From NCBI GenBank assembly GCA_022567305.1, contig JADFHF010000004.1, positions 104,623 through 159,379 of the forward strand: DNA of 54,757 nucleotides. Reading direction: 5' to 3'. Positions 41,055 through 45,751 of the stretch are shown here, in pieces. The notes below the pieces were generated by a model that saw nothing but the letters and a program-made list of their open reading frames with translations, searched no databases and was not told the origin of the DNA. Source of the DNA: Bacteroidota bacterium. Its GTDB lineage: Bacteria; Bacteroidota; Rhodothermia; Rhodothermales; UBA10348. The position numbers and the translations under genes were made by a program. Each line of letters starts with the position of its first letter. Position 1 is the first letter of the stretch.

Positions 41055-41115
41055 TGGGAAGTCGATATTCGCACACCTTCTTTCGGTTGGAATGAGGACA
41101 CTTCACGTAAATCCC

Positions 41116-41171
41116 GTTCTCAAAGCCCATAACGTCGACATCTCGATGGATTGCAAGGGCCGCTGGATGGA
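41116..41171 (+). pseudogene. IS3-family transposase, broken left fragment
   Basis: The plus-strand frame from 41116 reads VLKAHNVDISMDCKGRWMD, the stretch of an IS3-family DDE transposase that precedes DNVFVERLW. It is cut at ATGGA (41167-41171), where the serine-recombinase element begins. The rest of the transposase lies at 44514-44720. Upstream sequence lost its likeness, so the 5' part of the insertion sequence is deleted. Confidence 0.8.
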
Positions 41172-41196
41172 CAAAGCGATAGCTGCATACTACACC

Positions 41197-43275
41197 TCAT
41201 TGACTTGTTGAAACGCGAGGTTGCGCGGGAGTCCGGCCGATGAGTCGCTTACCCTGCATTTTGCGCGGCGCATCGGGGCCGGGTGGTTCATAGAGACATT
41301 CGTTTTTCGCAGAATACGGATAAGCGATGAGCAAACCATGCCGATTCCACGCCTTCACGGTCATGTGATGAACATTCAGACGGTCTGCCATCTCCTCTAT
41401 GGTAAGCATTCCACGGGCACGAAGCCGTTCGAAGCGATTCTTCAGTTTGTACTGTCGCCTGATGTTGTGTACGATCGAACGGGACCAGGGAAGTCCGTGA
41501 CCGGAGGTGAGTCCACGCGAGTTGAGGATCTCGGCGATGTCGGCCTCGAGGTGATCCTCCAGTAGACGGTCCACCTCTCGCACCACTTCGGCAGGTGTCT
41601 GATGCACCTCCCAGGTTCTGGCGGGTCGGGGTAGGTCGAGCTGCTTTACGGCACCGCCGCGCAAGCGTACCTGCAGCCTGATGTGCCCGTTCCGGACAAG
41701 GGTCACGTCTTCGATCATCAGGCGAACCATCCGTTTGCGTTCGCGATCGCTGGTCTCCGGGCGACGCCACAGTCTGGGAAGGTCGTTGGCCAACGCGAGA
41801 AGCTCGCTGCGAAGCGCCTCGTCCACGAGCAGAGCGTCGTTTTGCCTTTGCTGTTCATACGTACGCTGAGCCTCTTCCAACGTGCGCAGCTTTGCATTCC
41901 AATCGGCCTCGAGCGCATCTGCCACCAGACGATTTGCTGGATCGACGTTCATGAACCGACGCCGGGCCAGATCGCTCTCATAGCGCGTTCGCTCAACCTC
42001 TTGGAGCCGAAGACAATCGGCCTCTTCGGAGCGAGCAAGAAGTTCCTCCTGCACGGCCAGGGCAACTTCGACGCTCGTCGTGCTCATCAACGAGAGGAGC
42101 ATCCGGGCGATAGCGTCGTCGATGGCAGCGCCGGGAACGATCTGGCAGAAAGGCCGACCGTGTTCTATCCCGTCGCGCATACACGTGTAGTCAGGCACCA
42201 GGCGTTTACGCCGAGCATGATAGCGCACGCTCATGCGATGGCCACACCGGCCGCAGATCACGAGCCCCTGCAGAAGTGCCGGCCCCTCCCGAGGCGGACG
42301 CTTGTGTCGGTCGTAGCCATACCCGTTGGCATTATCACGCAGGCGCCGCTCGTTCGCCTCGAACCGATCCCAGCTGATGTAGCCTTCGTGGGCGTTGGGA
42401 AGCAGCGCGAACCACTCCTCACGCGCCAGAGAATGCGATGAGTAGCGGCCGTCGGGACGCCGCTTTGTACGTGTACGCCCATAGAAGAAAGCACCGGCGT
42501 ATCGTGGGTTGTGCAAGCACGTGAGCGCACGAGTGTGCGTCAGGTCGTTCCAGTGCAGTTCGCCTTTGTGCAGACCCTTGTGAATCCGACGCGGGAACAG
42601 GAGACCCTGTCGCCGGAAGTCCTTGACGGTAGCCGTCGCCGAACCGGTACGCAGGAATGTCGCGAAAAAGCAGCGAATGCTCGTCTGCACCTGCCGGTCC
42701 GGATCGAGAATGACTTGATCCTGTTCGTCGTAGAGAAAACCGGTTGGCAACCGCATCTTCAGCGCTCCACGCCGGGCCTTGTTCAGGGCGCCGCCACGCA
42801 TGCGGGCCTTCAAAAAATGAAGCTCGGCTTCGCTCATCGTGCCTTTGAGTCCAAGTAGCAGTCGGTCATTGAAATGTGCCGGATCGTAAAGGCCATCTTC
42901 GTCAAGAATAAGCGTCGCCGTGAGGGCGCAAATTTCCAGGAGGCGATGCCAGTCACTCGAATTGCGAGCCAGGCGCGAGACTTCGAGCCCCATCACCAGT
43001 CCTGCGTGGCCCAGGCCCACCTCGGCCACGAGTTTCTGAAACCCTTCGCGGCCCTGCGCAGAGGCGCCCGATTTACCGAGATCGCAATCGATGACATGGA
43101 TGCGTTCCGTCGGCCAGCCGAGCGCAAGTGCCCTCTCGCGCAGTGCGTACTGTCGCTGAGTACTCTCGCCGTGCTCGGCCACCTGGCGTAAGGAGGACTG
43201 TCGCACATAGAGATAGGCGTCGCGGCCGAGATGCGAAGCGGTTACCTTTTGTACGCTCGGATTGGCTGGCTGCAT
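41197..43275 (-). CDS. large serine recombinase
   Basis: 692 residues. The N-terminal resolvase domain (about 18-150) has the active site YVRQSSLRQV with Ser27, and LEVSRLARN (Ser100, Arg101, Arg104), so it appears catalytically intact. Next come the recombinase domain (about 170-290), a zinc ribbon starting VICGRCGHRMS, a coiled coil rich in Glu/Arg (about 430-490), and a late MerR-like helix-turn-helix (LTIEEMADRLNVHHMTVKAW). The start ATG 43275 has Shine-Dalgarno GAGGTG (43288-43283). It is the last gene of the element and should drive its integration and excision at the shared GATGGA. Confidence 0.93.
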   Translation of the reverse strand: MQPANPSVQKVTASHLGRDAYLYVRQSSLRQVAEHGESTQRQYALRERALALGWPTERIHVIDCDLGKSGASAQGREGFQKLVAEVGLGHAGLVMGLEVSRLARNSSDWHRLLEICALTATLILDEDGLYDPAHFNDRLLLGLKGTMSEAELHFLKARMRGGALNKARRGALKMRLPTGFLYDEQDQVILDPDRQVQTSIRCFFATFLRTGSATATVKDFRRQGLLFPRRIHKGLHKGELHWNDLTHTRALTCLHNPRYAGAFFYGRTRTKRRPDGRYSSHSLAREEWFALLPNAHEGYISWDRFEANERRLRDNANGYGYDRHKRPPREGPALLQGLVICGRCGHRMSVRYHARRKRLVPDYTCMRDGIEHGRPFCQIVPGAAIDDAIARMLLSLMSTTSVEVALAVQEELLARSEEADCLRLQEVERTRYESDLARRRFMNVDPANRLVADALEADWNAKLRTLEEAQRTYEQQRQNDALLVDEALRSELLALANDLPRLWRRPETSDRERKRMVRLMIEDVTLVRNGHIRLQVRLRGGAVKQLDLPRPARTWEVHQTPAEVVREVDRLLEDHLEADIAEILNSRGLTSGHGLPWSRSIVHNIRRQYKLKNRFERLRARGMLTIEEMADRLNVHHMTVKAWNRHGLLIAYPYSAKNECLYEPPGPDAPRKMQGKRLIGRTPAQPRVSTSQ

Positions 43276-43281
43276 GGGCTT

Positions 43282-43575
43282 TCACCTCAAATGGTTGATT
43301 TGGGGATCGGGATGCCTGCCCGATCCGAGGATAAGCGAGACGATGGTATGCACGAGTTCGCTCTCTTCGGGCAGCCGCATCGCCGGTGCACTCACCGTCG
43401 GCAGCACCTCTGCCGTGTGAGCCGTGCGCATCCAGGTCAGCAGGCCCCGGTGCACGACGAGTCCGTAACCCATCGGGCGGTCCTCCTGGCAGCGAGGCCC
43501 GAGCGCCCGGGAGCGAAGCTGTTCGTAGGCTTCGATTCCGGTGTAGGGTTCGGGATATTTACCGGTAACGCTCAT
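43282..43575 (-). CDS. small element protein of unknown function
   Basis: 97 residues, MSVTGKYPEPYTGIEAYEQL at the start. The ATG at 43575 overlaps the TGA of the HTH gene (ATGA), and its own stop is 6 bp before the recombinase start. This tight packing makes it a real gene. No named family is recognised. Possible roles are control of recombination direction or an accessory to the recombinase; both are guesses from position. Confidence 0.7.
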   Translation of the reverse strand: MSVTGKYPEPYTGIEAYEQLRSRALGPRCQEDRPMGYGLVVHRGLLTWMRTAHTAEVLPTVSAPAMRLPEESELVHTIVSLILGSGRHPDPQINHLR

Positions 43576-44027
43576 CGTTTTTTTTGCCGGGCCTCCAAGC
43601 GGCGCTTGATCGTGCGTGGATGCACACGAAGGCCCACGTGCTTGTCGAGTTCGCCGACCAGATCCACCCACGTAAGATGAGGATCCTCGGCGAGACGTCC
43701 TTCGAGGAACTCCACCAGGTCAGCCGTGAGTTTGAATGCACCGCGTGGGCCGCGCCGCTCGGGAACCAATCCCCACAGACCACCCGCGTCGAGGGCCCGT
43801 CGTGCCGCGTAATACGTAGGCCGGGAGAACCCAAAGCAATCGGCGGCTCGGCTGATGCTCCAAGCATCGTGCTTCACGCGGCGTAGCATCTCGTACTTGA
43901 CCTGAACAAGGTCGGCTGCGTCGAAGAAGGCGACCTCGAGAAAGAGCAGGTCCTTTACCGCAAGGGCGTGAGGATTGAACGTGCCCGACTGACGGAGCGC
44001 TTTGTCTTTGCCGTCGCTTTTTGACAT
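43572..44027 (-). CDS. helix-turn-helix protein of the recombinase element
   Basis: 151 residues from ATG 44027. The HTH is DAWSISRAADCFGFSRPTYYAARRALDAGGL (about 52-82), of the type found at the N-terminus of IS481/IS630-like transposases and in stand-alone element regulators. A second winged or homeodomain-like region (LTWVDLVGELDKHVGLRVHPRTIKRRLEA) lies near the C-terminus. The frame is open up to 44264 but those codons are AT-rich and unlike protein-coding sequence. It likely binds element DNA as regulator or excision factor. Confidence 0.78.
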   Translation of the reverse strand: MSKSDGKDKALRQSGTFNPHALAVKDLLFLEVAFFDAADLVQVKYEMLRRVKHDAWSISRAADCFGFSRPTYYAARRALDAGGLWGLVPERRGPRGAFKLTADLVEFLEGRLAEDPHLTWVDLVGELDKHVGLRVHPRTIKRRLEARQKKR

Positions 44028-44187
44028 GGCTTTAGTTTGAATTGTAAATATATTGTTGTCTTTATAGGAATCTATAACCAGATAGATAATGCAATATAAG
44101 TTATATATTGGCCAATGTGCTACCATTAACCTTGAATATATGGTACTTATCCGCATTCCGGTGCACGTAGATGAGACATTATTATTT
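44028..44187. promoter_or_regulatory. AT-rich gap inside the element, probable promoter region
   Basis: 160 bp between the DUF5372 stop and the HTH start, conspicuously AT-rich amid GC-rich genes. It contains the perfect palindrome ATTGGCCAAT (44107-44116) and several TATA-like stretches. I cannot fix a -35/-10 pair with confidence. Confidence 0.4.
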
Positions 44188-44466
44188 TTACAAAGTGACA
44201 GATTTTGCTTTACACTCCGAAGCCCTTGGATCTGCCAGAGAATTGAGCAGACTGCGAAGTTCAAGCAGATCGATCAATCGAAAACAGCTCCGCCCGGCCG
44301 AGACCACAACGAAAGGATCCGGGGCGACACAATCCGTCCAGGAGGCCGGAATATTCGTCGGATGGCCTTTTGCGTCGTAGAAATAGACCCGATCTTCACC
44401 CCAGGCATTGCGATACGTCAGGACTTCGAACTCCTGCCCACAAAGCGGGTGATACGGATGTGTCAC
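44188..44466 (-). CDS. DUF5372 family protein
   Basis: 92 residues from GTG 44466. MTHPYHPLCGQEFEVLTYRN, GEDRVYFYD, PASWTD and DPFVVVSAGRSCFRLIDLLEL match the DUF5372 pattern, a small family seen next to recombinases. The start codon lies inside a perfect inverted repeat (44462-44482). It is the first gene of the recombinase cassette and only 46 bp from the right border, so its promoter must be very short or lie in flanking DNA. Function unknown; phage and element context suggests an accessory DNA-processing role. Confidence 0.7.
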   Translation of the reverse strand: MTHPYHPLCGQEFEVLTYRNAWGEDRVYFYDAKGHPTNIPASWTDCVAPDPFVVVSAGRSCFRLIDLLELRSLLNSLADPRASECKAKSVTL

Positions 44467-44482
44467 GACGAAACGTCGTGAC
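44462..44482. repeat. perfect inverted repeat over the DUF5372 start codon
   Basis: GTCACGAC (44462-44469), GAAAC loop, GTCGTGAC (44475-44482). It includes the GTG start at 44466-44464 and lies about 30 bp inside the right end of the element. Candidate operator, recombinase accessory site or translation-blocking hairpin. Confidence 0.75.
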
Positions 44483-44513
44483 TCTTCATCGTGTTGGGGT
44501 GCACTTGACGGAG

Positions 44514-44720
44514 ATGGATAACGTGTTTGTCGAACGCCTGTGGCGGAGCCTGAAATATGAGGAGGTGTACCTGAAGGCGTACGAGAGCGTGTCCGAGGCG
44601 CGTCAATCGATCGCCACTTACTTCCGGTACTTCAATAACGAACGGCGACACAGTTCGCTCAGAAGACGAACCCCGGCTAACGTATTTTTCAACCACGAAA
44701 CGCTTCAAAAAGCAGCATAA
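44514..44720 (+). pseudogene. IS3-family transposase, broken right fragment
   Basis: The frame from ATG 44514 to TAA 44718 encodes MDNVFVERLWRSLKYEEVYL and FRYFNNERRHSSLRRRTPAN, the C-terminal end of an IS3-family DDE transposase (integrase core, rve_3). The sequence before 44514 in the same frame belongs to the inserted element. Its missing upstream part is at 41116-41171. Confidence 0.88.
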
Positions 44721-44815: not shown

Positions 44816-44917
44816 TTAATACACAATCCGCTCTACAAAAGTCCTTCGAATAACCCGGTCACATTTGTCGTAGATGCGCGTCGTTTTCATGTCTGCGTCG
44901 CTCGCTGCTTCTTCCAG
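44816..44917 (-). pseudogene. tyrosine recombinase, C-terminal remnant copy 1
   Basis: The minus-strand frame ends LEEAASDADMKTTRIYDKCD then RVIRRTFVERIVY and TAA. TTRIYD holds the catalytic Tyr position of phage/integron-type integrases. Only the last 33 codons are recognisable; upstream sequence is degraded. Confidence 0.75.
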
Positions 44918-45078
44918 AGAAGAAATAATCGTCTGCTCACAGAAGGTTACTCCGCTCGACTGGTGTCTATCACATGTCGGCACCGAATCTCAACACCTCG
45001 GTGATATTCATGTAACCTCGGCTACTGCATTTCGTCTCCCGCCTCAATATGGATTAGACTACCGCACTTGAAAACAAT

Positions 45079-45528: not shown

Positions 45529-45583
45529 TCAGTTGTGATATGACGAGCGAGGATGCAAGTCTGAAAAGTAGAGCGAAGCTCCA

Positions 45584-45751
45584 TCAATAAACAATCCGCT
45601 CAACTGACGTCCGTCGAATAACCCGATCGCGCTTGTCGTAGATGCGGGTTGTTCTCATGTCCGCATGGCGGGCCGCTTCTTCGAGCGTGCCACCGGCCTC
45701 GAGGAATCTCGTAATACCGGTTGCTCTGCAGACGTGATTTCCAATCCAGTC
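45584..45751 (-). pseudogene. tyrosine recombinase, C-terminal remnant copy 2
   Basis: The minus-strand frame reads DWIGNHVCRATGITRFLEAG, then GTLEEAARHADMRTTRIYDK, RDRVIRRTSVERIVY and TGA. It carries the HxxR pair (HVCR) and the catalytic-Tyr region TRIYD. It is a longer, diverged copy of the remnant at 44816-44917, in the same orientation; the flank after each stop is also similar (GCGAAGCTC). The N-terminal part is missing. Confidence 0.8.

Follow-up and report, generated by a model that had tools for sequence, protein, structure and literature searches.

The 3347-bp element at positions 41173..44519 (-) of the window, by which we mean the whole 54,757-nucleotide stretch of Bacteroidota DNA that was analyzed, is very probably (roughly 0.88) a serine-recombinase transposon that parasitizes insertion sequences (ISs). 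As shown by comparison among its copies, it enters DDE-type IS transposase genes by a conservative crossover at the dinucleotide AA, within the Lys or Asn codon of the motif [K/N]-x-x-x-E, whose Glu completes the DDE catalytic triad. The transposase gene is severed immediately before this Glu, with the element in antisense orientation.

In the window, the element separates two parts of a single IS3 orfB. The left remnant (..VLKAHNVDISMDCKGRWMD; 41098..41172, +) corresponds to the left half of attB, and the right part (44520..44720, +), which begins with NVFVE and its catalytic Glu, corresponds to the right half; empty-site relatives of this IS3 agree with the left assignment. The protein obtained by joining the flanks matches the NCBIfam model transpos_IS3 (E value, 5.8e-22), which bears out the description in an earlier note of a four-gene, one-strand, 3347-bp unit lying between the two sides of one IS3 frame. 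The extent of the element, with one AA core counted, was set by end alignment and homology between copies, and its GC content is 58%, against 52% elsewhere in the window. Only about 25 residues of orfB precede the junction, with little of its 5' part left, so the host IS had either decayed beforehand or was trimmed later. Outside the element, two diverged remnants on the minus strand (44816-44983 and about 45574-45660) resemble the C terminus of a tyrosine recombinase (..ADMKTTRIYDK..VIRRT..ERIVY).

All four genes of the element are on the minus strand. The large serine recombinase (LSR; 692 amino acids, 41197..43275) has Resolvase, Recombinase, and Zn_ribbon_recom domains (PF00239, PF07508, and PF13408, all above cutoffs), the catalytic motif Y22-x-R24-x-S26, a zinc ribbon, and, toward the C terminus (residues about 623-653), an additional MerR/Xis-like helix-turn-helix (HTH); R24, S26, and an SRLAR motif are invariant across six homologues. 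At higher coordinates lie the genes for a 97-amino-acid protein with no assigned family (43282..43575), weakly conserved in the corresponding position of other elements, and for a 151-amino-acid protein with a transposase-like homeodomain HTH (HTH_32/HTH_28; 43572..44027). The fourth gene encodes a DUF5372 protein of 92 amino acids with a GTG start (44188..44466; PF17342, E value of 1.1e-27 and 96.3 bits against a gathering cutoff of 25). An AlphaFold model of this protein from the single sequence had a pLDDT of 45, too low for use, and a structure search found no solved relative. An inverted repeat with 14-nucleotide arms and a 3-nucleotide loop lies over the DUF5372 start (44457..44487, -), recurs in a second copy of the element on contig C90 of the same genome, and could regulate DUF5372 translation.

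Alignment of element ends across copies yielded a simple rule, read here on the sense strand of the transposase: at the LSR end, host sequence gives way to AA-N17-RCACC, and at the DUF5372 end, GCA-N16-AA gives way to host sequence. The AA core accordingly occupies 41173..41174 (+) at the recombinase-side junction (RE) and 44520..44521 (+) at the DUF5372-side junction (LE). The attP of the element reads GCA-N16-AA-N17-RCACC, with quasi-palindromic arms flanking the core; in the window, the right arm is ACACCT (41192..41197, +), conserved across elements in the attP alignment, and the left arm, GCA-N16 (44501..44519, +), adjoins the core as at the other left ends of the clade. A slight departure from this rule, GCGCTCC in the right arm, is seen in the two identical Streptomyces copies. 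AA is found at both ends of every two-sided site, and this, with the ungapped empty sites described below, agrees with the identical 2-bp core and conservative exchange of LSRs. The expectation that such nested borders would give the att sites held, although the shared GATGGA that had been proposed as the core is partly coincidental. As a candidate core, GATGGA was rejected: the AA is preceded by GAC in the window but by GAT in a near-identical element (L005), and the uninterrupted sites closest to the window IS3 read ATG-GAC-AAY, fitting an AA core and not GATGGA. Contig C90 ends within the element, and its element bases match the window copy at 94 of 94 positions up to the AA, beyond which its IS3 is 83% identical to that of the window; therefore, the AA core is not a product of chance. 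The attB sites are only loosely alike, approximating C(-8)....GAY-AA-NG........GAR, with C at -8, GAY before the AA, G at +2, and, at +11/+12, GA from the Glu codon. In this consensus, conservation of the protein is inseparable from preference of the recombinase, and the GAR may reflect constraint on the protein instead of recognition by the recombinase.

The same position was cut throughout the survey. We tabulated 25 insertions (18 two-sided and 7 one-sided), and the host in every one was an IS transposase gene, of IS3, IS21 (istA), or ISNCY. Nine representative DDE-type hosts were rebuilt and assigned with NCBIfam models, in a test whose tenth protein was IS66 TnpB, the host of an element from a sister clade; the remaining hosts were assigned by sequence reading. 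In all 25 insertions, the crossover AA occupies positions 1 and 2 of a Lys or Asn codon, and a Glu lies four codons past it in 18 of the 19 sites with a readable right side (NVFVE, KGRVE, KAKVE, NGSIE, NAAME, NPYSE, KGKDE, and others); the exception, L040, is 6 bp shorter. Cutting the same codon of the catalytic motif thus appears to be the habit of the clade, with the exception of one phage insertion described below. The earlier note had proposed that the element targets IS3-type transposase sequences. Homologous copies with flanks unrelated to IS3 dispose of an IS3-only target, and because these flanks belong to IS21 and ISNCY, and to IS66 tnpB in a sister clade, they strengthen the wider claim that IS transposase genes are targeted.

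Uninterrupted relatives of the hosts provide the corresponding empty sites. When rebuilt, the ISNCY host of L009 and the IS21 host of L015 each align with an uninterrupted IS in a single ungapped alignment of 602 nucleotides, with identities of 97.8% and 91.9%, respectively, and AA stands in an open frame at three uninterrupted sites. In genome G397, a member of the same order as the window's organism, one uninterrupted ISNCY-type copy (L145, 16660-16780) has GATATG at the core where occupied copies have GATAAG; this copy is possibly a resistant site.

Homologous units were recovered mainly by a tblastn search of plasmids, which returned 546 records, mostly from rhizobia and also from Paraburkholderia, Aromatoleum, Streptomyces, and Rhodococcus; a single-protein genome scan and a viral scan yielded few loci. 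These units occur in Alpha- and Betaproteobacteria and Actinomycetota, with LSRs 52 to 58% identical to that of the window. Distribution nearer to the window is patchy, with DUF5372 found in 3 of 394 genomes of its phylum and the LSR in 6 of 114 genomes of its order. One of the latter, G397, has nine LSR matches, with TTCGCA/TGCGA arms about the AA and with ISNCY and IS21 hosts. The gene order at annotated loci is DUF5372, HTH, small protein, and LSR. The suggestion that the four genes are kept together holds for most copies, with identities to the window proteins of 40 to 49% for DUF5372, 42 to 47% across phyla for the HTH protein, and, at the annotated loci compared, 52 to 55% for the LSR; it is weakened by the 97-amino-acid protein, which is poorly conserved at only 21 to 30% identity, and by distant relatives that retain only a DUF5372-like gene and the recombinase.

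If the unit could not move by itself and were accessory cargo copied along with one IS lineage, its copies would be expected to travel with their hosts, and some do. On Aromatoleum EbN1 plasmid 2, a 6085-bp composite of IS21 and the element occurs twice at 100% identity (L141, 4564-10648, and L142), with the inverted ends of IS21 at its borders and apparent target duplications that differ (TCTGC and GGATGTC), and three copies in G397 share one ISNCY host. The EbN1 composite moved as a unit, so riding on ISs, as the earlier note had foreseen, occurs as well; since istA is broken by the element, the transposase was presumably supplied in trans. As the only mode of movement, however, carriage by one lineage is contradicted by pairs of copies in different hosts, and we regard it as improbable. 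Plasmid pNGR234a carries the same element twice, once in an ISNCY and once in an IS21 host, and the two LSRs show no difference across the region compared; in Streptomyces NBC_00841, copies with identical LSRs lie in two distinct IS3-type genes; and on Sinorhizobium medicae pMl2, near-identical copies lie in IS3 and IS21, the shared DNA of 3321 bp being the element alone. The presence of the same element in different IS families on one plasmid supports the proposal that the unit is self-mobile. The copy on C90, with its identical element end and its 83%-identical IS3, likewise represents an independent insertion of the same element, and in a metagenome-assembled genome of another genus in the family (L005/L024), an element with a 97%-identical LSR interrupts a different IS3 at the same codon. 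At L063/L095 on pMl2, the right side is IS21 istA (KPSAEESV..) and the left flank is unlike the matching IS, which makes a later rearrangement likely.

Beyond the window's clade, related recombinases also reside in IS genes. A sister clade, with LSRs 47 to 56% identical, is inserted in IS66 tnpB between LFT and KRLERGRF, also at AA. More-distant LSRs (33 to 40% identity) accompany a DUF5372-like gene that falls just under the Pfam cutoff or below detection; their hosts, with cores placed roughly, include istB at the Walker A loop (L102, L057, and L021) and near RYERG (L096 and L100), IS66 tnpC behind the catalytic Glu (L071, L103, and L098), IS1380 (L050), and IS110 (L056). An LSR tree supported by SH-aLRT only groups most target types by clade; the DDE label needs four changes, since the TnpB and phage cases nest within it, and the IstB Walker A insertions do not form one clade. 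It is likely, in our judgment, that an entire superfamily of small serine-recombinase elements marked by DUF5372-like genes consists of IS hyperparasites, its clades each tuned to the DNA encoding a near-invariant motif of an IS protein, the proposed motifs being the DDE catalytic Glu helix, KRLER of IS66 TnpB, IS66 TnpC, IstB Walker A, IstB RYERG, IS1380, and IS110.

A recombinase of low specificity could also yield many IS insertions, since ISs tolerate insertion and IS-rich DNA is over-sampled: the survey was skewed to the IS-rich plasmids of rhizobia, no IS host could be assigned to L030, L035, L036, or the right side of L031, and one element on an IMG/VR contig (L019, with a recombinase 57% identical to the window's) occupies the start of a phage baseplate-like gene. 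The last case indicates that the target is defined by a DNA motif, which need not belong to an IS, the recombinase reading DNA and not gene identity. Low specificity is nevertheless hard to reconcile with a base-exact insertion at the same transposase position in 25 sites of several IS families, and with ISs making up as much as 20% of the DNA, the chance of 30 of 30 insertions falling in ISs would be about 1e-21 before position is counted; we consider this explanation as improbable as carriage by one IS lineage. Least probable is a defense or regulatory cassette that switches off ISs to the benefit of the host, for although each insertion destroys a transposase just ahead of its catalytic Glu and the genes are antisense, any insertion there would break the transposase, there is no sign of benefit, and multiple copies, patchy distribution, plasmid enrichment, and an intact recombinase fit a selfish element.

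For a transposon that parasitizes ISs, we propose that the element excises as a circle, whose attP would recombine with the loose attB supplied by catalytic-helix codons, and that the recombinase alone could carry out this integration. Because these codons supply an attB in several IS families, one recombinase can use IS3, IS21, and ISNCY copies, and because AA is not palindromic, insertion has a fixed orientation, with the element antisense to the transposase. A directionality factor or regulator may be among the three small proteins; DUF5372 is the best candidate, as it is the sole small gene kept in distant relatives. An IS family would offer an abundant, dispensable, and horizontally moving target and occasionally, with transposase supplied in trans, a vehicle.

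The niche of such an element is other mobile elements: it disables the transposase at a stretch that the IS cannot change without loss of activity. If the superfamily reading is true, conserved catalytic codons serve as a target that the prey could not readily lose by mutation, and the idea that ISs are kept in check by their own parasites becomes testable. The copies described here also provide several natural sets of recombinase, attB, and attP whose cores are known, of which some could be applied to many IS copies together, and context for the annotations "recombinase family protein" and "DUF5372" on rhizobial and actinobacterial plasmids. The two pNGR234a copies (L009 and L039), which we take to be the repeated y4b/y4p gene block, are annotated as separate genes, mostly of unassigned function, and we found no description of this block as a targeted element in the open-access literature. 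That literature also yielded nothing relevant on DUF5372, on serine recombinases in IS3, IS21, or IS66, or on recombinases targeting transposases. Elements that insert in conserved genes are already known; to our knowledge, none specializes in the catalytic-site codons of IS transposases across families.

Among known systems, XisF-type recombinases, which excise the fdxN element, are the best NCBIfam match of the window LSR, although its score of 90.1 bits against the equivalog model NF041201 is far under the cutoff of 375, and the element, unlike that type, lacks developmental excision. The element resembles the IS607 family in serine-recombinase transposition without inverted repeats. IS607 transposases have an inverted domain order and minimal target specificity (PMC4058570), whereas the element has a large recombinase and base-exact targets. 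LSRs with many target sites are already known (PMC10083194), and with multi-targeting LSRs and the TndX-TnpX transposons (Tn5397 and Tn4451), the element shares recombinase-driven transposition into many loci. DUF4368 occurs in 63% of the multi-targeting clade, of which one example uses loose AT-rich sites with a TT core (Durrant et al., PMC10083194); in contrast, the site of the element is a GC-rich coding motif of transposases. DUF4368 had no match in the window LSR at E values up to 1, an absence that is not exclusive given that 63%. Like large serine integrases of the phiC31, Bxb1, and A118 type, the element combines Resolvase, Recombinase, and zinc-ribbon domains with a 2-bp core and an inverted-arm attP, and it has neither terminal inverted repeats nor a target duplication. 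Those phage integrases act at one or a few unique sites in the chromosome, whereas the element, only 3.3 kb long and without phage or conjugation genes, uses a motif common to many mobile transposase genes.
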